Positions 19,512-32,281 of a stretch of 40,366 bases of DNA are shown here, one piece after another. A program made the position numbers and the translations under genes. The DNA is from Oscillospiraceae bacterium (lineage in GTDB: Bacteria > Bacillota > Clostridia > UMGS1840), in NCBI GenBank assembly GCA_015068645.1, contig SVKD01000016.1, forward strand, positions 1 to 40,366, read 5' to 3'. Under the pieces are notes generated by a model, which was not told the origin of the DNA, ran no database searches, and saw only the letters and a program-made list of their open reading frames with translations. Position 1 is the first letter of the stretch. Each line of letters opens with the position of its first letter.

Positions 19512-21290
19512 ATGAAGAAAATAATTGCAATTTGTTTAGTTGTAGTATTGTTAATTATAGCATTCCCCACCTCTGTTTTAGGGGCGAGAGATGTATTTTT
19601 TGAAAATCATCTGGCAGGGGATTTGAAAAAATTGGGACTGTTTCAAGGTGTTTCTGAGAATGATTTTGATCTTGACCGTGCACCCACCCGTTTGGAAGCC
19701 CTGGTGATGCTGGTTCGTTTGATGGGCCTGGGTAACAGCGCACAAAACAGCACTGCATCCCATCCTTTTACCGATGTACCCGAGTGGGCAAACTCTTATG
19801 TGGGATTTGCTTATCAGAAAGGATTGACCAATGGGATTTCTGACACTGTTTTTGGTACAGCAGATGCAAACGCACAGACCTATCTGACCTTTGTACTCCG
19901 TGCACTTGGTTATTCTGACGTGGACGGAAAAGATTTCACTTGGGATAACCCGTTTCCCTTAGCAGAACAGTTGGGGTTGATTTCTCCCAAGACTGATCTG
20001 GAAAACTTCCTGCGTGCAGACGTGGTATTGGTGTCTTATGCGGCACTGGAAGCCAAAACAAAGGGGACCGGTGGCACATTGTCTCAAAAGCTGATGGAAA
20101 ACGGCTTGTTTTCCTTCAACGAGTATAATATGAACTATGACCGCACTGCGCTCAAACGTTTTTCGCAAGAGCAGGTGCAGTTAACCTCGGAAGAAATTTA
20201 TACCAAATGTTCACCGTCTGTTTTTCGGATCGATGTGTATAATCGTGCAGATGAACTCATTAGTACCGGAAATGGTTTCTTTATTGAAGAAAGCGGTGTA
20301 GCGGTTACTGATTTTCATGTGATTAAAAATGGTTATTCTGCCAAAATCACTATGTTGGAAACCGGAGCTGTATATCAGGTGTCCGGTGTTTATGATTACA
20401 GTATTGACTATGATTGGGCGATTATTCAGGTGGCGGGAAGCGGATTTTCCGTTTTACCTGTGGGAGATGCTGCCATTGCAACAGACGGTGCGATGGTATA
20501 TACCGTGGGAGAACAGAAAAATTCCAACGGTGGCATTGCTACCGGTAAAATCTCCAATGCAAATAACTGGATAGGAAATATTTGTTATATTGCAACGGAT
20601 GTTGCTGCAGCCAACCAAGTCTGCGGCAGTGCATTGGTTAACAAAAGCGGGGAAGTAATCGGGATTGTTTCAGATGCTTCATCCAATGGTCAAAATGCAC
20701 TTTTGGCGCTACCGATCTCCGTGATCGAAAATCATTTGAAAGGGAATCTGATTACTTTAGCAAGTTTGACCAGAATTCTTCAGTCTGCAGTTGGTACCGA
20801 ACATACTCCCAGAGAAGAAGCGTATGCATTGCTGTTGTCTGTGATTGATGCGATGGAAAACGAAACCATCAACGGAAAACGTTCCTATGCAGAAACCGTA
20901 GAAACCGAAAACGGTATGATTGAATATTCCCTGGTCCGTAATGACGATCACTCTATTGATGTGACCATTTGGGAAATTTCGGGAGAAGATACCTATTACA
21001 CTTCTTTGACACTGGAACCTTATGATGATAATATGTTTGTGTATTACAGCTACAATCATGCAGGGGATTCTTTTGAATGTACGGGCCTTGCACAGATTCA
21101 TGCTCCTACCTACAGTGTTCACAGCGATCTTCGTTTTATTGAAGCAGATGCCAACATTGATGCACAGTTGGATGCAGCAATCTGTCATGAAAATGTTGTG
21201 AAAGGCTTGCAATTTGTTCAACGCATTTATGAACGGTTCCACGGTTTGGGAGATTACACCATTTCCGATTTGGGATTCTTAAATTTCTAA
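19512..21290 (+). CDS. SLH-anchored trypsin-fold protein with Ser-to-Cys substitution
   Basis: The 592-residue secreted protein has a signal peptide (MKKIIAICLVVVLLIIAFPTSVLG), three SLH-like repeats (about 25-200) and an HtrA/trypsin-like domain (about 225-410). An unrecognised C-terminal domain shared with its neighbour completes it. The triad positions read H269 (TDFHVI), D301 (DYDWAIIQV) and C371 (QVCGSALVN, codon TGC at 20622-20624). The paralogue has GSSGGALIN at the same position, so the nucleophile Ser is Cys here and the oxyanion-loop glycines are altered. The substrate loop GSPLGL of the paralogue reads GEQKNS. It may be a cysteine-nucleophile protease or an inactive binder. AAAGGAG precedes ATG 19512; the gene has its own promoter and terminator. 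Confidence 0.85.
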   Translation: MKKIIAICLVVVLLIIAFPTSVLGARDVFFENHLAGDLKKLGLFQGVSENDFDLDRAPTRLEALVMLVRLMGLGNSAQNSTASHPFTDVPEWANSYVGFAYQKGLTNGISDTVFGTADANAQTYLTFVLRALGYSDVDGKDFTWDNPFPLAEQLGLISPKTDLENFLRADVVLVSYAALEAKTKGTGGTLSQKLMENGLFSFNEYNMNYDRTALKRFSQEQVQLTSEEIYTKCSPSVFRIDVYNRADELISTGNGFFIEESGVAVTDFHVIKNGYSAKITMLETGAVYQVSGVYDYSIDYDWAIIQVAGSGFSVLPVGDAAIATDGAMVYTVGEQKNSNGGIATGKISNANNWIGNICYIATDVAAANQVCGSALVNKSGEVIGIVSDASSNGQNALLALPISVIENHLKGNLITLASLTRILQSAVGTEHTPREEAYALLLSVIDAMENETINGKRSYAETVETENGMIEYSLVRNDDHSIDVTIWEISGEDTYYTSLTLEPYDDNMFVYYSYNHAGDSFECTGLAQIHAPTYSVHSDLRFIEADANIDAQLDAAICHENVVKGLQFVQRIYERFHGLGDYTISDLGFLNF

Positions 21291-21418: not shown

Positions 21419-21459
21419 AAATGAAAGATTAAAATTTGCGGGACAAAGGAGAGAGGCAG

Positions 21460-23253
21460 TTGAAAAAACTTATTGCAACATTTTTGAGCATCATGCTTGT
21501 TATGATGGCGTTGCCCGCTGCTGCGTCGGCAGCTGCCGGTTCAGATTTCGAACAGCAGCTTGCAGGAGATTTGAAAAATCTTGGGCTGTTTCAGGGTGTT
21601 TCAGACACGGATTTTGCTCTGGATCGTGCACCTACCCGTGTGGAAGCACTGGTGATGTTGATTCGTTTATTAGGTGACGGATCTCTGGCACAAAACAGCA
21701 CAGCTTCCCATCCTTTTACCGATGTTCCCCAGTGGGCAGACGGATATGTAGGATATGCATATCAAAAAGGTTTAACTAAGGGTGTTTCTGAAACGACTTT
21801 TGGTACCGGCGAGGCAAGCGCACAGATGTATCTGACCTTTGTGTTAAGAGCTTTGGGATATTCCGATACCAACGGAGAAGATTTTTCTTGGAGCAATCCT
21901 TATTCCTTAGCAGAAACCGTAGGAATCTTGCCCGGGCAGGTTAATCGGGTGAATTTTCTGCGTAAAGATGTGGTTTTAGTTTCCTATGCGGCACTGAATT
22001 CCAATTTGAACGATACTGACAAATCCCTTGCCCAAAAGCTGATTGAAGACGGTGTGTTTACATATGAGCAGTACACCGAATATTATGACCCTGCGGCATT
22101 TGCAAAGGTGGAACAAAATGCTAAGGAGCTGTCCTCAGAGGAAATTTATAACCGTTGTTCTTCTGCTGTTTTTTATATTGAAATGTATAACCGTGCAGGT
22201 GATGCAATTTCTTCCGGGAGTGGATTTTTTCTAGAAGAAAGTGGTGTTGCAGTTACCAATTATCATGTGATTGAAGGTGGTTATTCCGCAAAAGTCACCA
22301 TTTCAGGCACGGAAGAAGTGTATGATGTTTTAGGTGTTTATGATTACAGTGAGAAATATGACTGGGCTGTAATTCAAATTGACGGAAGCGGATTTTCCAC
22401 ACTGGAAATCGCTGACGAAGATACTGTGATTGGCGGTAGTACCGTGTACGCCATCGGTAGCCCTCTCGGACTGAAAAATACCATTAGCCAGGGATTGATT
22501 TCCAATACTCACCGTTGGCTTGATAATGTTTGTTATATCCAGACCAGTGCTGCGATTTCACAGGGGAGCAGTGGCGGCGCTTTGATTAACAAATACGGCG
22601 AAGTAATCGGAATTACTTCAGCAGGTTTTACGGAAGGTCAGAATCTGAATCTGGCTCTTCCTATGTCTGTGATCGCAGAGCATCAGAGAAACGCTCTTAC
22701 CTCTTTATCTACGTTGGCTGAAGAATCTTCTGTAGCGGCTGTTCCTTCCGGCAATAATACGAATGCTACTGCCAAAGAAAATGCTTATTATATGCTTCTG
22801 GCTGTTATTGAAACCATGGAAAATGAAGATATCAACGGTCAGCCTGCTTACACGGAACGGATCGATACCGAAAACGGCTATGTGGAATGCTCCATTTGCC
22901 GGAACGACGATTATACCATTGACGTGATTTATTTTGAAGTATATCGGGACGATATTTACTATACCTCGTTAACTTTGGATTTTGCAAGTAACGACTACTT
23001 TGTTTACTATAGCTTCAATAATGATCAATCTCCCTTTTATTTTTTAGGTATGACTGAAATTTATGCGCCCAATTACACGCCCGATAGCCAAATCCACTTC
23101 TTAAGAGCTGAGGGTACCGTAGATCAGCAACTCAATGAAGAAATTTGTCACGAGAATGTAATGACAGGTCTTGATTATGTGCAAAGCATTTTTTACAGGC
23201 TGTCTGATATCGGTAATTTTTCCGTTGCAGATCTTGGATTTATCAATTACTAA
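21460..23253 (+). CDS. SLH-anchored HtrA/trypsin-like serine protease
   Basis: The 597-residue protein has the same architecture as its upstream neighbour: signal peptide (LKKLIATFLSIMLVMMALPAAASA), three SLH-like repeats, a trypsin-fold domain and a shared C-terminal domain. The catalytic triad is intact: H269 (TNYHVI), D301 (KYDWAVIQI) and S371 (GSSGGALIN), numbered from the TTG start. I chose TTG 21460, preceded by AAAGGAGAG, over the codon 8 positions earlier. It probably cleaves or checks exported proteins at the cell wall. The tandem arrangement and even register show a gene duplication. No PDZ domain is evident. Confidence 0.87.
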   Translation: MKKLIATFLSIMLVMMALPAAASAAAGSDFEQQLAGDLKNLGLFQGVSDTDFALDRAPTRVEALVMLIRLLGDGSLAQNSTASHPFTDVPQWADGYVGYAYQKGLTKGVSETTFGTGEASAQMYLTFVLRALGYSDTNGEDFSWSNPYSLAETVGILPGQVNRVNFLRKDVVLVSYAALNSNLNDTDKSLAQKLIEDGVFTYEQYTEYYDPAAFAKVEQNAKELSSEEIYNRCSSAVFYIEMYNRAGDAISSGSGFFLEESGVAVTNYHVIEGGYSAKVTISGTEEVYDVLGVYDYSEKYDWAVIQIDGSGFSTLEIADEDTVIGGSTVYAIGSPLGLKNTISQGLISNTHRWLDNVCYIQTSAAISQGSSGGALINKYGEVIGITSAGFTEGQNLNLALPMSVIAEHQRNALTSLSTLAEESSVAAVPSGNNTNATAKENAYYMLLAVIETMENEDINGQPAYTERIDTENGYVECSICRNDDYTIDVIYFEVYRDDIYYTSLTLDFASNDYFVYYSFNNDQSPFYFLGMTEIYAPNYTPDSQIHFLRAEGTVDQQLNEEICHENVMTGLDYVQSIFYRLSDIGNFSVADLGFINY

Positions 23254-23341: not shown

Positions 23342-24373
23342 TCAGTTGCCGGTTATAGCAGCAGAACCACCAATATCCCTTCCCAATTCGCAGGTATACA
23401 GCCATTCGATCCGATCGCCGTCTTTTAACTGATAACGTGAACAGCCGTAATTGGGGAACCAATCGTTTACTCGGTACATCCATCCGGAAAGCTCCCCGCA
23501 GTCAAACTCGTAAAGATTTGCTATGCCTTCAATATAGGAGCTGTTATACAGAGGGGTGTGTTCAAATTCCATGTGAATTCTATTTTGTTTCATTTCCCGC
23601 AGGAGCACATCAAATACATTTTCTCCGTCATAGAAGACGACCGTCTGTTCTGCATAGATAACACCGTCTTTCGGAACAAGTTCCACCTTCTCCGGATCCA
23701 GCCATTCCATATGCTGAAGAATACTGTCACAACGAACAGACAGAGTGCAGCTCAGCGCTTGATCAGATACATCCACATTCTGAGGTTCCACGGGGACGGG
23801 TTTTCCCTCGGGAACCGGGTCGGTGAGATATTGGTCTTTTCCGGTGTTTGGATCGATTATCATCGTGTTTTTTATATCGATATTTTCATGTTCTGTTTTT
23901 GCCTGAGAAGCAAGATCTTTTTCTGCAGTATCTTCCTTTTTGTTTGCTGTAACGATATCACTTGTGGTTTTCTTTTTTGTAGTAAGTTCAGAGTGTTCTG
24001 TTGGATTAGCATTCTGTGGCTCCTCTGTGACAGGTGCGGTGTGATTTTGTTCTTCCTCGGAACTTTCATCTGTGATGACATCATTTTCAGTCGGGGGATT
24101 TTCGTTTTTTGTTTCCGTTTGAGGAGCAGGATCTTTTTCTGCACTATCTTCATTTGTACTTGTCGGAAGGATAGGATTGATTTTTTGCTCCTTCGGAGTA
24201 GGAGTAATATATTCTGATGAAACAGATACCTTGCTTTTGGGAGACAACTCCTGACTTTCCGAATGAATTGCCCATCCCCGAAGTCCCGGAGCGTCGCCGC
24301 CGTACCAAAAAGTAAAGGAAAGGACTGCTACAATAAGAAGTCCCCATATGATTTTATTTTTGTGTTTTATCAA
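23342..24373 (-). CDS. Membrane-tethered DUF4430 (transcobalamin-like) protein
   Basis: This 343-residue protein has an N-terminal membrane segment (IIWGLLIVAVLSFTFWYGG). A Thr/Glu/Pro-rich stalk of about 165 residues follows, with a loose internal repeat (EDSAEKDPAPQTETKNEN and EDTAEKDLASQAKTEHEN). A DUF4430 beta-grasp domain lies at about 206-328, with FDVLLREM, SGWMYRVNDWFPNYGCSRYQLKDGDRI and WLYT motifs. DUF4430 is related to the C-terminal domain of transcobalamin and intrinsic factor. The TTG start at 24373 follows an AAGGA site. It begins 18 bases after the toroid-SLH gene, as the third gene of the cobalamin-riboswitch operon. I infer a membrane-proximal corrinoid-binding role. Confidence 0.8.
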   Translation of the reverse strand: MIKHKNKIIWGLLIVAVLSFTFWYGGDAPGLRGWAIHSESQELSPKSKVSVSSEYITPTPKEQKINPILPTSTNEDSAEKDPAPQTETKNENPPTENDVITDESSEEEQNHTAPVTEEPQNANPTEHSELTTKKKTTSDIVTANKKEDTAEKDLASQAKTEHENIDIKNTMIIDPNTGKDQYLTDPVPEGKPVPVEPQNVDVSDQALSCTLSVRCDSILQHMEWLDPEKVELVPKDGVIYAEQTVVFYDGENVFDVLLREMKQNRIHMEFEHTPLYNSSYIEGIANLYEFDCGELSGWMYRVNDWFPNYGCSRYQLKDGDRIEWLYTCELGRDIGGSAAITGN

Positions 24374-24391
24374 CCGATTTCACATCCTTTT

Positions 24392-26392
24392 TTATTTTGT
24401 TGTTGTTATTTGAAGAAAACGCATCAGAATGGTTGCCACTTGAGCACGGGTTGCAGTATTCTTGGGAGATAAGGTCGTGGCATCAGTACCATTCAGCAGA
24501 GAAACAGCGTTCGCCCATTGGACGGCATCCCTTGCCCAATCACTGATCTCGTTGGTATCTGTATACTTTTCAAGATTGGAGCTGATTGAAACATCAATTC
24601 CGCACATCTTTGCGTAGCGCCAGAGCATTAAAGCCATTTGCTCGCGGGTAACTTCTTGTTCCGGCATAAATTCTGTTTCACTCACACCGTTTACAATCTT
24701 ATTTGTAACTGCCCACGAAACTGCGTCAAAGTACCAACTATCTTCCGCTACATCTGAAAAACTGTGGATAACTTCTGTTGTTTCGGAGGGGGACATTCTG
24801 TAAAGAGTGGTTACAAGCATTGCTCTTGTCATTTTACCGTTGGGCTCAAAGCCGTTGTCGGTACCTTGCATCAGGTTGTTTTCATATACGTACTTCACGG
24901 ATTCGTAATACCAGTCGTTTCTTTGAACATCAGCGAAAGTGGTATCGGTCATTACAAAAATCTCTGTGTTTTCAGATGTTGTTTGTTCGGGTTCGGGCTG
25001 TGTTTCTTCCGTTTGTGTTGGATTATTTTCTTTGGAGAGGGAGTCCTCTGCTTCGGGGGCTTGGTCTTCCTCTACGATAGGATCGTCCCAAATTTCAGGA
25101 TCTTCTTCCACGATAGGATCCTCCCAAATTTCAGGATCTTCTTCTGCAATGGTATCATCCCAATCATCGTTTTCTTCCTGATCTTCGTCTTGTGTTATGG
25201 TGACATCTGACATATCGTAAAGATGAGTTTTGCCTTCCAGGAAACGAATGTAAGAAACCAATGCATATTCTCCCTGCTCAGTAGCCATGCCGTTTAAGCC
25301 AATATAGGGGATATGTTCAAATCCGCCGCCCTCTATGGCAAACATACACAAGGCATCTACCACGGAAATTCCATTCTTCACAAAACGCTCGTCGGTTTCG
25401 GGGTCAATGCCTAGCGCCGTCAATGCAACAAGTACCTGAGCACAGGACTCGCTGCAAATACCGTCGATGGAACCAAAAGCTCCATTTTCATATTGAGCTT
25501 CAGAAAGGTAACTCAGCGCAGTTTCCACGGCTTCTGCAACCTGGGGATTGGTATCGCAATAGGGAGCAAGCGCCACAATTGCCATCCCTGTCATATCAGG
25601 GTCGGAGGTCTGTCCATAAATGGACCAGCCACCGTCAGGAAGTTGTTTTTCCAGAATATAGGATATGATATCTTCTCGGGTTGCCTGAGTGTCTTCGTTG
25701 GAGTTTTGGGGAATTTCATAACCATAACTATCTAAGGCGATAAGAGCCCAGATGGGACCGTTCACCCCTTGTCTTTTTAAGTAACTCATATCGGAAAGTC
25801 CGCAAAGCAGATTATGTCCATCCACATTGGTAACATCATATCCCAATGAGGTAAGTGCAAGAATTACTCTGGAATTCTCAGTGGACTTCGCTCTGTGAAG
25901 TTGCCCTTTATCATTGATGTTTTCATTCACAAAGGTTACCACATTTTCATAATAACCATCCGGACATTCCCTGCCGGAACGGGTAAGGGCAATTACCATC
26001 CATTCTCCGCCAACAGACCCCACATTGGGGATTCCAAGCTGAGAAATATACTCGGCAGTTGCTTCGTAAACAGACAGATAATCGATGTTGGCTAATTCTT
26101 CATACAACACTGCGATGACTGCTTCCGCATCGGTTAAACTATCAATATTTTCAACCAATTCTTTGTGAGAATCGGGTAATTCTTCGTAGGTATTCCGGGC
26201 TTCTTTGATTCTCTCGCCAGCAAATATGGTAACTTCGCCGATGGCGTCGATTGTTTCCATCACCGCATTGATACTATTATAATCTATTTCTTCGGTGACA
26301 ATATCATTTTCCGTAACTTCCTCTGATGCCAGAACGGGCAATGTAGAAAACAGCATTACCAAAAGAAGCAAAATACTAACAATTTTTTTCAT
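24392..26392 (-). CDS. SLH-anchored alpha/alpha-toroid (prenyltransferase/squalene-cyclase repeat) protein
   Basis: The 666-residue secreted protein begins with a signal peptide (MKKIVSILLLLVMLFSTLPVLA). A helical spacer (about 38-108) follows, then a toroid region (about 110-390) with the repeat motifs GGEWMVIALTRSG, KQLPDGGWSI and QYENGAFGS. A very acidic linker with the tandem repeat EEDPEIWEDPIV/EEDPEIWDDPIV (about 417-442) leads to three SLH domains (about 485-660). The toroid fold is that of squalene cyclases and prenyltransferases, but also of the N-terminal barrel of intrinsic factor and transcobalamin. No enzymatic DXDD-type motif stands out. AAAGGA precedes ATG 26392. As the middle gene between two DUF4430 genes under a cobalamin riboswitch, it probably binds corrinoid rather than acting as a cyclase. 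Confidence 0.82.
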   Translation of the reverse strand: MKKIVSILLLLVMLFSTLPVLASEEVTENDIVTEEIDYNSINAVMETIDAIGEVTIFAGERIKEARNTYEELPDSHKELVENIDSLTDAEAVIAVLYEELANIDYLSVYEATAEYISQLGIPNVGSVGGEWMVIALTRSGRECPDGYYENVVTFVNENINDKGQLHRAKSTENSRVILALTSLGYDVTNVDGHNLLCGLSDMSYLKRQGVNGPIWALIALDSYGYEIPQNSNEDTQATREDIISYILEKQLPDGGWSIYGQTSDPDMTGMAIVALAPYCDTNPQVAEAVETALSYLSEAQYENGAFGSIDGICSESCAQVLVALTALGIDPETDERFVKNGISVVDALCMFAIEGGGFEHIPYIGLNGMATEQGEYALVSYIRFLEGKTHLYDMSDVTITQDEDQEENDDWDDTIAEEDPEIWEDPIVEEDPEIWDDPIVEEDQAPEAEDSLSKENNPTQTEETQPEPEQTTSENTEIFVMTDTTFADVQRNDWYYESVKYVYENNLMQGTDNGFEPNGKMTRAMLVTTLYRMSPSETTEVIHSFSDVAEDSWYFDAVSWAVTNKIVNGVSETEFMPEQEVTREQMALMLWRYAKMCGIDVSISSNLEKYTDTNEISDWARDAVQWANAVSLLNGTDATTLSPKNTATRAQVATILMRFLQITTTK

Positions 26393-26409
26393 GTGATTGG
26401 TTCCTTTCC

Positions 26410-27471
26410 TTAATTTACAATATATGCTTCACAAAGGGGCATACAGGTTGTAAAGCCATCCCACAACATCAGTTTATCATTGGAAGAAAGTGTGATATCG
26501 GAATCAATGGGAACAATCATCACATTTTCACCGCTTGTTTTTTTGGTGGTCAGGGGAATTGGTTTTATAAGGTTTAATTGATCGTTTTCATAATCTGCAA
26601 GAATCAAAGTGATGTTGGCACCTTCTTCGGGGAATGTGATATACACAAAATCTCCGTCATAGCCTGTGATTTCAAAATCTGAAACCGTGGCGGTGAAAAA
26701 AGTATCTTCAATGTAGCTGGTGAGAATTGTTTCCTGTTCTGTCAGTTCCGAAGCACTTGCCAAAGGATTGGCAGCTACCGCAAGTGCAGTTTCATACACA
26801 TCGTCGGTATCAAGATTTCCATAATAATCATTGATTGCAGCCAAGAGGAAAATGAGATCAGATTTATCTTCCTGAATAAATAAATTTCCACCCATCCATT
26901 CTGCCATCACATTATTAGCAAATCCACAATCACAGCCATAACCTTTGATGGTAAAATGCCAACGGATTACATCGCCGAGAATCACCGTTTCGCCGGAGTT
27001 GTAATCAACAATTGCATCCCCCGGATATGCATCCGATGCCCCCCAGGATGCCCACCAGTCATTCATGGTATAGCACCAACCGGACATCCAGCTATAATCG
27101 AATTCCTCCAAATAACCGTTTCCGTCCCCTAAGCCTTCAAATTCCCAGATGTAGTCTTGTAGATATTCGGGATATTGGGGTTCAATAGTATCGTCAAATT
27201 CAAATCCGCTGAAATAAGAGGTGTCCCCCGTATAACCAATGTTCTTTTTGGTAAGAACCTCTACTGTAATATCGCCAACCGATTTTCCTTCTTTGGCATA
27301 TAAAGACGGTTCTACCAGAAAACCCTGACCAAGATTATACGCTTCCACAGAAATTGCACCGTAGTTTTCTCTTAAATCAACCAAGGGCATTGTGTTGGCA
27401 AAGGTTGCGAGAGGGAAGAGGGAAACTGCCATCATCAAAAACATCAGGATACTAAAAAATTTTTTGTTCAT
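26410..27471 (-). CDS. Secreted DUF4430 (transcobalamin-like) protein
   Basis: This 353-residue exported protein has a signal peptide (MNKKFFSILMFLMMAVSLFPLATFA). A DUF4430-type beta-grasp region (about 38-180) contains the motif SGWCYTMNDWWASWGASDAYPGD and GDVIRWHFT. A helical segment (about 200-260) and a C-terminal beta domain ending WDGFTTCMPLC follow. Several cysteines (GWC, GCDCG, TCMPLC) could form disulfides outside the cell. No SLH or membrane anchor is present. I chose ATG 27471, with AAGGAG upstream; the longer frame to 27603 runs through the terminator hairpin. It is the first gene after the cobalamin riboswitch and is followed by the toroid gene after 17 bases. Confidence 0.82.
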   Translation of the reverse strand: MNKKFFSILMFLMMAVSLFPLATFANTMPLVDLRENYGAISVEAYNLGQGFLVEPSLYAKEGKSVGDITVEVLTKKNIGYTGDTSYFSGFEFDDTIEPQYPEYLQDYIWEFEGLGDGNGYLEEFDYSWMSGWCYTMNDWWASWGASDAYPGDAIVDYNSGETVILGDVIRWHFTIKGYGCDCGFANNVMAEWMGGNLFIQEDKSDLIFLLAAINDYYGNLDTDDVYETALAVAANPLASASELTEQETILTSYIEDTFFTATVSDFEITGYDGDFVYITFPEEGANITLILADYENDQLNLIKPIPLTTKKTSGENVMIVPIDSDITLSSNDKLMLWDGFTTCMPLCEAYIVN

Positions 27472-27567
27472 TTTGAAATTCTCCTTTTTATTATTTGCGG
27501 GAAATAGCGCTTTGGTAGCACGATGTTTTATTTTTTTATACGCCTCCTCGTTGTTACCGCAGATAAT

Positions 27568-27605
27568 AAAAAAACTGCGGCAATTTTGATTCAAAATTGC
27601 CACAG
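27568..27605 (-). terminator. Leader terminator downstream of the cobalamin riboswitch
   Basis: On the minus strand CTGTGGCAATTTTG and CAAAATTGCCGCAG pair (one U-G) around an AAT loop, followed by TTTTTTT. It lies about 100 bases after the aptamer and about 100 bases before the first start codon, so it can act as the switch-controlled terminator. Confidence 0.88.
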
Positions 27606-27708
27606 CAGAGTGTTTCTGTGAACTTCATATTTTGTTTTCTAAAAAAAGAAAAACAAAACTATTATTCCTGTGCAAATTCTCCAGACACATTGGCGGAACA
27701 ACATCAAA

Positions 27709-27893
27709 GCAGGTCTTCTGACTCGTATCTTAAAACGCTCATTCCTTAGTCTTCTCAGTTTCCCAATGACCGGCTTTCGCCCTGTGCCAGAATCTGGCGG
27801 AATCAACTTGATACATACAGCGACTGGTATCGTCCGGGATTCGCACCCGGTTCCCTTTTCATCTGCAAAGCCAAACGGCAGGGCAGACACTTT
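27709..27893 (-). promoter_or_regulatory. Cobalamin riboswitch
   Basis: The minus strand carries the conserved cobalamin-aptamer landmarks in order: AAAAGGGAACCGGGTGCGAA, a CCGGG/CCCGG stem, CCAGTCGCTGT in place of the usual GCCACTGT, AAGCCGGTC, GGGAAACTGAGAAGACTAA, and the closing GAGTCAGAAGACCTGC box. A promoter precedes it and a terminator follows. Riboswitches of this class usually shut off genes when adenosyl- or other cobalamins are abundant, so the three surface proteins should be made under corrinoid shortage. Which cobalamin form is sensed cannot be told from this. Confidence 0.93.
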
Positions 27894-27918
27894 GTATGAA
27901 TTATTTTGTTGTATCAAA

Positions 27919-27947
27919 AGCATAGCATAGATATTCTTTATTGTCAA
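27919..27947 (-). promoter_or_regulatory. Sigma-A promoter of the cobalamin-regulated operon
   Basis: TTGACA (27942-27947) and TATGCT (27919-27924) on the minus strand are 17 bases apart. Transcription would begin near 27912, just before the aptamer. Confidence 0.8.
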
Positions 27948-28024: not shown

Positions 28025-28131
28025 ATTTATGCATATTGTATAAAATGCACGATAAATCAAGCAAAAAATTTAACGATATATCCAAATGGCATGGATTTTC
28101 GTGCCGACAACATATTAAGGAGGGCTTAATT

Positions 28132-28620
28132 ATGGCGCACATTAGTGAGGCAGGTGTAGCAAAGATTTTGGAAATCTGCCAAAGATACGCAAACGAAAAA
28201 ACTCCCCTGATGATGATTTTAAGTGACATTCAGAATGAATACGGATATATTCCTCTGGATGTGCAGCAGATTGTGTCGGATCAAACCGGCATTTCGGTTG
28301 CAGAGATTTACGGTGTGGTAACCTTCTATTCTTTCTTTTCGTTAGAACCGAAAGGAAAATACGTCATCGGTTGTTGTATGGGTACCGCTTGTTATGTAAA
28401 AGGTGCTCAGCTGGTAATGGACAAATTTTCCGAAATCTTGGGTATTGCTCCCGGGGAAACCACCGCTGACGGATTATTTACCATTGACGCTTTAAGATGT
28501 ATCGGTGCCTGCGGGATTGCGCCTGCGGTAACTATCAACGGAAAAGTGTATCCCAAGCTGTCTGTGGATCAGGTTCCCGGCATTGTGGCAGAATACAAAG
28601 CTTTAGGAGGTGCCATCTGA
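28132..28620 (+). CDS. NuoE-like [2Fe-2S] subunit of NAD(P)-linked [FeFe] hydrogenase
   Basis: This 162-residue thioredoxin-fold subunit carries a [2Fe-2S] cluster and passes electrons between the NuoF-like and catalytic subunits. The four cysteine ligands lie in GCCMGTACYVKG and RCIGACGIAP, as in NuoE and HndA/HydC. MMILSDIQNEYGYIP near the N-terminus is also typical. I chose ATG 28132 with an AAGGAGGG site; the upstream part of the frame overlaps the leader. Its TGA overlaps the next ATG by one base, so the pair is translationally coupled. Confidence 0.93.
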   Translation: MAHISEAGVAKILEICQRYANEKTPLMMILSDIQNEYGYIPLDVQQIVSDQTGISVAEIYGVVTFYSFFSLEPKGKYVIGCCMGTACYVKGAQLVMDKFSEILGIAPGETTADGLFTIDALRCIGACGIAPAVTINGKVYPKLSVDQVPGIVAEYKALGGAI

Positions 28621-30500
28621 TGAAAACATTTGCAGAATTAGATGCTAAAATTTGCAGCTGTACCGAAGCATTAAAAGGTAAAATAGACGGTGCTGACGGA
28701 AAACGTGCCATTCTGCTTTGTGGCGGTACCGGATGTTTGTCCTCCAATTCTATGGACATCAAAGCAAAATTTGAACAGTTGATTGCTGATAATAATATGG
28801 GTGACAAGGTAACCTGCAACATCGTTGGATGTTTCGGATTCTGTTCCCAGGGACCTTTCGTGAAAATTTTCCCCGAAGACACTCTGTACCGTTTGGTAAA
28901 GGTAGACGACGTGGAAGAAATCTTTGAAAAAGATATCAAAAACGGCGAAATCGTGGAACGCCTGCTTTACATAGAACCCTTAACCGGCGAAAAAGTGGCA
29001 AAACAGGAAGATATCAATTTCTATAAAAAACAAAAACGTATTGCATTGCACGGTTGCGGTGTTATCAATCCCGAAGACATCAACGAAGCAATGGGCGAAG
29101 GCGCATTTTTGGGATTGAAGAGAGCTTTGTCTATGAGCCAGAAAGAAGTCATTGACGAAGTGTTGGCATCCGGTCTTCGCGGACGTGGGGGAGCAGGGTT
29201 CCCCTCCGGACGTAAATGGAGTTTTGCGTATGCCAACGAAGCAGACCAGAAATATGTGGTTTGTAATGGTGACGAAGGTGACCCGGGTGCATTTATGGAC
29301 CGTTCCATTTTAGAAGGAAATCCCTTTGCAGTGTTGGAAGGGATGATGATTGCAGGGTATGCCATCGGTGCCACTGAAGGTTATTTCTATGTGCGTGCAG
29401 AATATCCTATTGCCGTTGCACGTTTGAGAAATGCTATCAAGCAGATGAACGAAGCCGGTATTTTAGGCGAAAATATTATGGGAAGCGGTTTTAGCTTCCA
29501 GGCACATATCCGTTTGGGTGCAGGTGCCTTTGTATGTGGGGAAGAAACTGCTCTTTTAAATTCCATCGAAGGAAAACGCGGTATGCCTCGTCCCCGTCCT
29601 CCGTTCCCGGCGGTAAAAGGTTTATGGGGAAAACCCACCATTGTAAATAACGTGGAAACATTGGCATGTGTGCCTTATATTTTAAGAGAGGGTGCCGAAA
29701 AGTTTGCAGAATGCGGTACCGAAAAATCCAAAGGTACCAAAGTGTTTGCCTTGGGCGGTAAAGTAAATAACGTAGGGTTGGTGGAAATTCCTATGGGTAC
29801 CACCTTACGGGAACTGATTTATGATATCGGTGGCGGTATTCCGAACGGGAAAGAATTTAAAGCAATTCAGACCGGCGGTCCCTCCGGCGGATGTCTGACC
29901 AAAGAAGCCCTGGACGAACCCATTGATTTTGATAACTTAGTAGCAAAAGGCTCCATGATGGGTTCCGGCGGTGCTATCGTTATGGATGAAGATAACTGTA
30001 TGGTAGACGTTGCCAAATTCTATATGGAATTTATTTGTGACGAATCCTGCGGTAAATGTTCTCCCTGCCGTATCGGTACTAAGAGAATGCTGGAAATCTT
30101 AACCCGCATTACCGAAGGTAATGGCACTATGCAGGACTTGGAAGAACTGGAAGAACTGGGCAAAACCGTAAAAGCAAACTCTCTTTGTGCATTGGGTCAG
30201 ACTGCGGCAAACCCCATTATCTCCACCTTGACTCACTTTAAAGATGAATATTTAGCACATATTGTGGATAAACAATGTCCCGCAAAAGTATGTAAAAAAC
30301 TCATTCAGTACACCATTGTGCAGGATAACTGTTTTGGTTGCGGAATGTGTGCAAAAGCTTGTCCTGTTGGTTGCATTGAGCAAACCGATTACACCGCACC
30401 CGGTAAGAAACTGAAATCTTATCAGATTGATGCTTCTAAGTGTGTGAAATGCGGTGCTTGTCTTGCAACCTGTAAGTTTAAAGCAATTATTCAGAAGTAA
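28620..30500 (+). CDS. NuoF-like flavoprotein subunit of NAD(P)-linked [FeFe] hydrogenase
   Basis: This 626-residue subunit holds the NAD(P)H and FMN site. In order it shows a thioredoxin-like [2Fe-2S] domain (CGGTGCLSS ... CNIVGCFGFC), the nucleotide-binding loop GLRGRGGAGFPSGRKW, the FMN motif NGDEGDPGAFMDR, the [4Fe-4S] motif ESCGKCSPCRIGT, and a C-terminal 2[4Fe-4S] ferredoxin domain (CFGCGMCAKACPVGC and CVKCGACLATCKFKA). The architecture matches HydB/HndC of bifurcating and NADP-reducing hydrogenases. It starts at ATG 28620 with AGGAGG inside the previous gene. Bifurcation itself cannot be shown from sequence. Confidence 0.95.
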   Translation: MKTFAELDAKICSCTEALKGKIDGADGKRAILLCGGTGCLSSNSMDIKAKFEQLIADNNMGDKVTCNIVGCFGFCSQGPFVKIFPEDTLYRLVKVDDVEEIFEKDIKNGEIVERLLYIEPLTGEKVAKQEDINFYKKQKRIALHGCGVINPEDINEAMGEGAFLGLKRALSMSQKEVIDEVLASGLRGRGGAGFPSGRKWSFAYANEADQKYVVCNGDEGDPGAFMDRSILEGNPFAVLEGMMIAGYAIGATEGYFYVRAEYPIAVARLRNAIKQMNEAGILGENIMGSGFSFQAHIRLGAGAFVCGEETALLNSIEGKRGMPRPRPPFPAVKGLWGKPTIVNNVETLACVPYILREGAEKFAECGTEKSKGTKVFALGGKVNNVGLVEIPMGTTLRELIYDIGGGIPNGKEFKAIQTGGPSGGCLTKEALDEPIDFDNLVAKGSMMGSGGAIVMDEDNCMVDVAKFYMEFICDESCGKCSPCRIGTKRMLEILTRITEGNGTMQDLEELEELGKTVKANSLCALGQTAANPIISTLTHFKDEYLAHIVDKQCPAKVCKKLIQYTIVQDNCFGCGMCAKACPVGCIEQTDYTAPGKKLKSYQIDASKCVKCGACLATCKFKAIIQK

Positions 30501-30514
30501 GGAGGTATTTCAAA

Positions 30515-32281
30515 ATGGCTACTGTAACTATTAAAATTGAAGGCGTTTCCTATCAGGTAGAAGAAGGCATCACCATTTTGGAAGCTGCAAAAAAATGCGG
30601 TTATGAAATTCCTTCTTTGTGTGCATTTAATCACGGTGAGTGTTCCAACGGTTCCTGCCGTGTATGTTTAGTTGAAGTTGCAGGTGCAAGAGGATTGGTT
30701 GCTTCTTGTGTATATCCTGTGAATGAGGGAATGGAAATCCGTATTTCCACTCCCGCAGCAGCAGAAGCACGTCGTGCATCTGTGGAACTGTTATTATCCA
30801 ACCACAATCAGAACTGTCAGCAGTGTGATAAGAACGGTCAATGTGAACTGCTGCACGTGGCATCGGTAACCGGTGCAAGAGAAGGCAGATATCAGGGCGT
30901 GAAAACTCCCGTGACCTTAGATGATTTAACCCCCTCCATCGTTCGTGATACATCAAAATGTATCCTTTGCGGACGTTGTGTGGCAAGATGTGAAAACGCT
31001 CACGGAATGGGTATCTTAGGCTTTGAAAACCGTGGCTTTAAAACCATTGTTGCACCGGCAGAAAACCGTTCTATGAAAAATTCTCCCTGTATCCTTTGCG
31101 GACAGTGTGTCAGCGTATGTCCCACCGGCGCTTTGATGGAAAAATCCGAAATTTCCAAAGTGGATGCTGCTATGAAAGCAGGAAAACACGTGGTGGTGCA
31201 GACTGCTCCCGCAGTTCGTGCCGCATTGGGTGAAGAATTCGGAATGCCCGTTGGCACCGCTGTGACCGGCAAAATGGTGGCTGCCTTAAAACGTTTAGGA
31301 TTTGACAAAGTGTATGACACCAACTTTGCTGCCGACTTAACCATTATGGAAGAAGGTACTGAATTATTAGGCAGAATCAAAAACGGCGGCGTTCTTCCTA
31401 TGATTACCTCCTGTTCTCCCGGATGGATTAACTATGCAGAATATAATTATGGTGATTTATTGCCTCATCTGTCCAGCTGTAAATCCCCCCATCAGATGCA
31501 GGGTGCCATTATTAAGTCTTACTATGCCGAAAGAAACGGTATTGACCCCAAAGATATTTTTGTGGTTTCCATTATGCCCTGTACTGCAAAGAAAGACGAA
31601 AAAGAAAGAGAACAAATGCAGGTGGATGGCATCAAAGATGTGGATGCAGTGTTAACCACCCGTGAACTTGCCCGTATGATTAAACGTGCAGGTATTCTGT
31701 TCACCCGTCTGCCCGACGAAGAATTCGACCAGGATTTAATGGGAGATTACACCGGTGCAGGTGTTATCTTCGGTGTTACCGGCGGTGTAATGGAAGCGGC
31801 ACTTCGTACCGTATATTTTGTGTTGACCGGCAAAGAACATGATGCTATCAAATTTGAAGCGGTTCGTGGATTCGACGGCATCCGTGAAGCATCCTTGGAT
31901 ATCAACGGCACCACCGTAAACGTGGCAATTGCACACGGTATGAAAAACGCAAAAGTCTTGCTTGATGATATTCGTGCAGGCAAATCCAAATATCACTTTA
32001 TTGAAATTATGGGTTGCCCCGGCGGATGTATTGCAGGTGGCGGTCAGCCGATTATCCGTTCCTGTTTCTTACCGAACGAAGCAGACGATATTTTGGATAC
32101 CTACAAGGAAAAACGAGCAAAAGCGTTGTATAGCGAAGACGAAAGACTTACCTTACGTCAGTCTCACAACAACCCGCAGATTAAACAGCTCTATGATGAA
32201 TTTTTGGGAGAACCCAATTCTCATAAAGCACACGAACTTCTGCATACGACTTATTCTTCTCGTGTAGGTTTTAACGATTAG
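30515..32281 (+). CDS. [FeFe] hydrogenase catalytic subunit
   Basis: This 588-residue subunit makes or uses H2 at the H-cluster. Its N-terminus has a [2Fe-2S] domain (CAFNHGECSNGSCRVC), a His/Cys-ligated [4Fe-4S] motif (HNQNCQQCDKNGQC) and two more [4Fe-4S] sites (CILCGRCVARC, CILCGQCVSVCP). H-cluster motifs are L1 TSCSPGW, L2 MPCTAKKDE and L3 EIMGCPGGCIAGGGQP, and the small-subunit-like end SHNNPQIKQLYDEFLG ... HELLHTTY is present. L1 has Ser in place of the second Cys of TSCCPGW. AAGGAGG precedes ATG 30515, 14 bases after the NuoF-like gene. The maturases HydE, HydF and HydG are not in the window. Confidence 0.95.
   Translation: MATVTIKIEGVSYQVEEGITILEAAKKCGYEIPSLCAFNHGECSNGSCRVCLVEVAGARGLVASCVYPVNEGMEIRISTPAAAEARRASVELLLSNHNQNCQQCDKNGQCELLHVASVTGAREGRYQGVKTPVTLDDLTPSIVRDTSKCILCGRCVARCENAHGMGILGFENRGFKTIVAPAENRSMKNSPCILCGQCVSVCPTGALMEKSEISKVDAAMKAGKHVVVQTAPAVRAALGEEFGMPVGTAVTGKMVAALKRLGFDKVYDTNFAADLTIMEEGTELLGRIKNGGVLPMITSCSPGWINYAEYNYGDLLPHLSSCKSPHQMQGAIIKSYYAERNGIDPKDIFVVSIMPCTAKKDEKEREQMQVDGIKDVDAVLTTRELARMIKRAGILFTRLPDEEFDQDLMGDYTGAGVIFGVTGGVMEAALRTVYFVLTGKEHDAIKFEAVRGFDGIREASLDINGTTVNVAIAHGMKNAKVLLDDIRAGKSKYHFIEIMGCPGGCIAGGGQPIIRSCFLPNEADDILDTYKEKRAKALYSEDERLTLRQSHNNPQIKQLYDEFLGEPNSHKAHELLHTTYSSRVGFND

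Follow-up and report, generated by a model that had tools for sequence, protein, structure and literature searches.

A cobalamin riboswitch-controlled operon for a putative split, intrinsic-factor-like corrinoid-capture system on the surface of an Oscillospiraceae bacterium

An Oscillospiraceae bacterium (GCA_015068645.1; 1.76 Mb, 20 contigs, 97% complete) contains an operon that probably encodes the surface part of a system for the uptake of B12 (corrinoid), in which, as we infer, two of the proteins would hold the corrinoid between them and hand it over to a transporter. The operon is located on contig SVKD01000016.1, of which positions 1-40,366 (40,366 nucleotides, here called the window) were analyzed, and occupies positions 27947 to 23342 of the minus strand, with a promoter-like site, a cobalamin riboswitch, an intrinsic terminator and three genes following each other. 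The promoter-like site TTGACA-17-TATGCT (27919..27947, minus strand), assigned by its match to the consensus only, lies just 5' of the riboswitch aptamer RF00174 (27691..27909, minus strand), which scores 74.8 bits (E 8.4e-17) against a cut-off of 31.5 bits. In the interval between aptamer and gene 1 there is the terminator (27574..27606, minus strand) with a perfect stem of 15 bp, a loop of 3 nt and a U tract; the stem, read from 27606 to 27574, is followed by TTTTTTTA, and the 61-nt fold has -22.8 kcal/mol with a z of -6.0. The leader has both the aptamer and the expression platform of a cobalamin riboswitch regulon, in agreement with the sequence-only reading, which had placed riboswitch and terminator at the head of three genes. 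Since in the predicted fold of 221 nt the ribosome-binding region of gene 1 is base-paired with the U tract and the bases 3' of the terminator, translation of this gene may be under control as well.

The three genes are separated by only 17-18 nt and encode exported proteins. Gene 1 (26410..27471, minus strand) codes for a secreted protein with a signal peptide, a DUF4430 domain of the SLBB beta-grasp type and a further C-terminal part. Its DUF4430 domain (26923..27354, minus strand) is below the threshold in Pfam (10.7 bits, E 0.77), but is found by the family HMM with E 3.6e-26 and aligns with the DUF4430 signature EFD..SGW.Y..N...GD.I.W..T..G.D.G. The start codon is the ATG at 27471, which is preceded by AAGGAG; a longer reading frame from the GTG at 27603 begins within the terminator and was rejected as start. 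Gene 2 (24392..26392, minus strand) encodes a signal peptide, an alpha/alpha toroid, an acidic linker and three SLH domains. The toroid (residues 108-397; 25202..26071, minus strand), assigned by HMM and structure prediction, has weak Pfam matches to Prenyltrans/SQHop. The SLH domains (24413..24943, minus strand; Pfam 1e-32) are an anchor to cell-wall polymer, and the PHROGs matches of gene 2 resemble shared repeats and SLH-type modules. Gene 3 (23342..24373, minus strand) starts with TTG and encodes an N-terminal membrane anchor with a TM segment, a long hydrophilic linker and a C-terminal DUF4430 domain (23366..23749, minus strand; Pfam E 1.8e-17, also found by the family HMM), which belongs to PF14478 with 64 bits at a curated cut-off of 23.8. 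The TM anchor is kept in the gene 3 orthologues of the same genus, and a lipobox is present in both Bacilli inspected. Signal peptides, SLH domains, TM segment and HMM matches are all in line with the order first read from the letters, i.e., a secreted DUF4430 protein, an SLH-anchored toroid and a membrane-tethered DUF4430 protein on separate chains with distinct anchors. In the four genus members compared (at 24373 in the window, and in L008, L009 and L010), gene 3 seems to begin with TTG throughout, within a conserved K-H-K-x-K-I anchor.

Two other gene groups of the window were noted by eye. Two neighboring paralogs on the plus strand (19512-21290 and 21436-23253) combine SLH-like repeats at the N-terminus with a trypsin/HtrA-like domain; a GSSGG catalytic motif is present in the second and QVCGSALVNK at this place in the first, so judged by this motif the first paralog may be inactive. 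The divergent operon at 28036-32281 (plus strand) resembles an electron-bifurcating [FeFe] hydrogenase with NuoE-like and NuoF-like proteins and a hydrogenase large subunit.

Relatives of the toroid are encoded at 79 loci of other genomes. The three-gene order with the riboswitch is kept in the relatives of the same genus, and a DUF4430 gene lies directly 3' of the toroid gene in 59 of the 66 loci with enough sequence; in nearly all relatives DUF4430 is either fused to the toroid or placed beside it. The architecture is fully split in the genus of the window, whereas DUF-toroid fusions occur in Ruminococcus bromii and others. Solibacillus has a giant DUF-toroid-DUF-SLH protein, with genes for a toroid-SLH protein and a DUF4430 lipoprotein behind it, and Lysinibacillus is similar. 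Toroid and DUF4430 are fused in many of the relatives, in both domain orders; a single chain with the toroid first is present in L067, L046 and L060, among others, while the window has separate chains. In the Clostridium loci L076, L078, L079, L084 and L085, toroid and DUF4430 modules form large arrays, in which single chains of L084 and L085 have as many as four toroids, and at several of the five loci two or three cobalamin-riboswitch-like motifs fall within ~20 kb.

The control by B12 extends beyond the window. An upstream cobalamin riboswitch on the same strand was detected by Rfam in 23 of 28 homologous loci (572 kb; L007-L010, L012, L013, L015, L016, L019, L021, L037, L040, L043, L046, L049, L050, L052, L054, L060, L065, L067, L073, L078), and none above the Rfam threshold in the other five (L020, L022, L024, L028, L051), of which L020 and L022 may have their true operon start outside the locus sequence. 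A riboswitch regular expression was positive in 20 of 60 loci; since it missed many riboswitches that Rfam finds, the Rfam counts were used. In a survey of the class with 148 unselected, evenly drawn genomes, 39 of 150 DUF4430 matches, among the matches listed, had a riboswitch on the same strand within 15 kb upstream, where a rough density estimate, with the mean genome taken as 2.4 Mb, gives an expectation of ~0.6. The controls, again among the matches listed, gave four riboswitches on the wrong side and two on the wrong strand. The sequence-only reading had proposed such a survey of co-occurrence and had named orthologous operons without riboswitch as the case that would speak against it; because of the linkage in the 23 loci and in the class survey these operons are not the rule. 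As judged from riboswitch placement, B12 control characterizes the toroid/DUF4430 family. That DUF4430 alone implies B12 was considered as well and rejected, as small stand-alone DUF4430 frames of the class (<170 aa) are riboswitch-linked in only one of 20 cases and the neighbors of the other DUF4430 gene in this genome are unrelated. This second DUF4430 gene (G000:C1:142624-142824; L006 6595-6978) encodes a lipoprotein of 127 aa with an LLSGC lipobox and adjoins a thioesterase-like gene, without a riboswitch. Small solo DUF4430 proteins may perhaps have another ligand. At L019 (15931-16834) a second S-component-like gene lies immediately 3' of a small DUF4430 gene, which points to a possible pairing of small DUF4430 proteins with other ECF S components. 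In L046 (7361-7948) two cobalamin riboswitches lie back to back on opposite strands.

A role in corrinoid uptake, as initially proposed, gains weight from the neighboring genes. In 56 of 66 loci the toroid and DUF4430 genes are adjoined by genes for EcfT, EcfA and an S component, and in L008 and L010, which belong to the same genus, these ECF genes come immediately after gene 3, their frames overlapping. In the window genome, EcfT and a fused EcfA-A-S are encoded on contig C13, where they lie behind the one further RF00174 match of the genome, and these genes are 78-83% identical to their L008/L010 orthologs. Since the orthologous ECF genes are found on another contig behind another riboswitch, one operon appears, from this comparison of gene order, to have been split into two, each with its own riboswitch. 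The transporter is encoded within the operon in relatives such as these two and is co-regulated in the window genome. Its S component matches PF12822/PF07155 (ECF_trnsprt/riboflavin-S type), and its best and only PDB match is, with a modest E-value of 0.0023, 6FNP, which is the vitamin B12 transporter ECF-CbrT (PMC5997447). Together with EcfT and EcfA, this CbrT homolog constitutes a transporter of the CbrT type. The genome also encodes two proteins with a B12-binding domain, one of which has the motif DLHDIGK that we take to be typical of corrinoid methyltransferase proteins, whereas a search of the genome for CbiC found none. B12-binding domains together with a missing CbiC suggest that the organism likely depends on external corrinoid.

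The folds of the two partners were compared with those of animal intrinsic factor. The predicted structure of the window toroid (pTM 0.82, with a pLDDT of mostly 97-99 across the domain) is an alpha/alpha toroid as in the intrinsic factor family, a fold that is also common to terpene cyclases and sugar epimerases. Its closest structures are class II terpene cyclases with Z ~23, besides other (alpha/alpha)6 barrels; transcobalamin (2V3N) is among the Foldseek matches with E 1.8e-4, but absent from the best 50 VIA-align matches. On the sequence level, the toroid profile retrieved terpene (squalene) cyclases only and not transcobalamin from the PDB sequences, the narrow profile of the gene 3 DUF4430 domain had no match there, and the DUF4430 part of the profile reached transcobalamin-2 at an E-value of 0.09 only. 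Since terpene cyclases are the closer matches, the toroid alone is no proof of kinship with intrinsic factor. The two domains were examined together in a natural toroid-DUF4430 fusion from Lysinibacillus contaminans (L067). For its predicted structure, intrinsic factor, transcobalamin and haptocorrin account for all of the first 15 PDB matches (E 7e-11 to 5e-9), and the next ones are the isolated transcobalamin beta domain, with which the beta domain of the fusion superimposes at 2.1-2.2 A over ~100 columns; this fused homolog thus has the beta-grasp of the intrinsic factor family. The closed two-domain arrangement was not reproduced (rmsd 8-12 A), and the linker of ~40 residues is disordered in the prediction (pLDDT ~30-40). 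By structure prediction both folds of intrinsic factor are present, and this part of the sequence-only reading stands for the fusion, whereas the toroid on its own is closer to terpene cyclases and has transcobalamin among its Foldseek matches.

Starting from the riboswitch, the anchors, the predicted folds, the transporter linkage and their conservation, the system would most likely work as follows. At low intracellular corrinoid the riboswitch would let transcription pass the terminator, and the three exported proteins would be made, i.e., a soluble DUF4430 beta-grasp, a toroid that is fixed to the wall through its SLH domains, and a DUF4430 domain tethered to the membrane through a TM segment and a long linker. 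The toroid and one beta-grasp domain, whichever of the two would serve as the cap, would sandwich the corrinoid in the manner of intrinsic factor, and its transfer to the CbrT-like ECF transporter (EcfT-EcfAA'-S) would then fall to the membrane-tethered beta-grasp. A more specific version, which we put forward tentatively, is a truly split intrinsic factor that binds corrinoid tightly only when the toroid of the wall and the beta-grasp of the membrane meet, before relaying it to the S component, and that is a relative of the ancestor of the animal carriers. We know of no counterpart to such an intrinsic-factor relay from wall to membrane. It is also possible, though in our opinion less likely, that this is a corrinoid system without any sandwich, in which toroid and beta-grasp bind independently or DUF4430 domains pair with each other. 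The two DUF4430 chains per toroid in the window and the open predicted structure of the L067 fusion would fit, as would the fact that the isolated transcobalamin beta domain has been solved both in apo form and with bound cobalamin (5NO0, 5NP4), but that the two domains are fused repeatedly, in either order, and that their genes are strictly adjacent in operons suggests that toroid and DUF4430 work together.

The proximity to terpene cyclases raises the question whether the toroid might rather be a surface enzyme of terpene-cyclase or prenyltransferase type that acts on lipid or glycan, with B12 control being indirect. Its closest folds at Z ~23 are squalene-hopene and drimenyl diphosphate synthases, the sequence profile matches the same family, and a conserved DPDMTGMA is located at the position of the cyclase DVDD (in one HMMER alignment). 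However, the DxDD motif of class II cyclases is not retained, as the toroid family has DPDM at the aligned place and Met replaces the last Asp. Moreover, the protein is exported and SLH-anchored, DUF4430 is its fused or adjacent partner in nearly all relatives, the neighbors encode an ECF vitamin transporter and no terpenoid genes, and cobalamin riboswitches recur across the loci, so that we consider such an enzyme highly improbable. Import of cobalt or another metal instead of corrinoid would agree with the T component resembling CbiQ (26.0 bits, Pfam cut-off 25), the ATPases matching CbiO models, the B12-riboswitch control that cobalt transporters can have (PMC2667541) and the title "putative metal binding protein" of 3U7Z, which matches the DUF4430 domain, but there is little chance of it, since the S component resembles CbrT and not CbiM, cobalt alone would yield no B12 in a genome without CbiC, and toroid and DUF4430 are the intrinsic-factor pair.

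A surface capture of corrinoid is the preferred reading, and parts of it have precedents. In the Bacteroides BtuG surface lipoproteins (PMC6143338), riboswitch-controlled capture of B12 at the surface also feeds a transporter, but BtuG works with BtuB in a Gram-negative bacterium, and no BtuG homologs were found outside the Bacteroidetes (PMC6143338). ECF-CbrT shares the homologous S component (6FNP) and the ECF T/A module, whereas the transporter described here has surface-exposed partners; riboswitch, operon and DUF4430 are not mentioned in the text of that paper (PMC5997447). Burroughs et al. (2007) named the SLBB superfamily, observed fusions with toroids as well as surface SLBB paralogs that share an operon and have CbiO/CbiQ-like neighbors, and predicted that in low-GC Gram-positives DUF4430-like domains and toroids serve to scavenge B12 at the cell surface; they also proposed bacterial proteins as the origin, by transfer, of the animal B12 carriers (PMC1796856). 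Gram-positive B12 scavengers with these folds are thus already predicted. Their transcobalamin-like clade has the DUF4430-type beta-grasp, the toroids and the paralogs with CbiO/CbiQ-like genes in common with our operon, but fusions were stressed there, while the window toroid has an SLH-anchored chain to itself and the transporter a CbrT-like S component. Riboswitches and S-layer anchors are not mentioned by Burroughs et al. (PMC1796856). No experimental work on bacterial toroid/DUF4430 proteins was found in the open-access papers searched, and compared to this open-access literature the links to the riboswitch and to CbrT are new, as is the split form with its SLH anchor. The linkage of riboswitch, toroid, DUF4430 and CbrT-type ECF transporter turns the prediction of 2007 into a concrete, testable system, which occurs across many clostridia and bacilli, culturable species included. 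It is relevant for how Gram-positive gut bacteria catch scarce corrinoid ahead of an ECF transporter, for the competition for B12 in the gut and for a possible bacterial origin of animal intrinsic factor. Intrinsic factor, haptocorrin and transcobalamin consist of an alpha/alpha toroid followed by a beta-grasp domain, the same two folds that are predicted for the window operon, and a natural bacterial fusion of the same domain order retrieves their structures first. In contrast to the animal carriers, the window domains are on separate chains with SLH and membrane anchors and under riboswitch control, and the toroid alone is nearer to terpene cyclases in sequence and fold.
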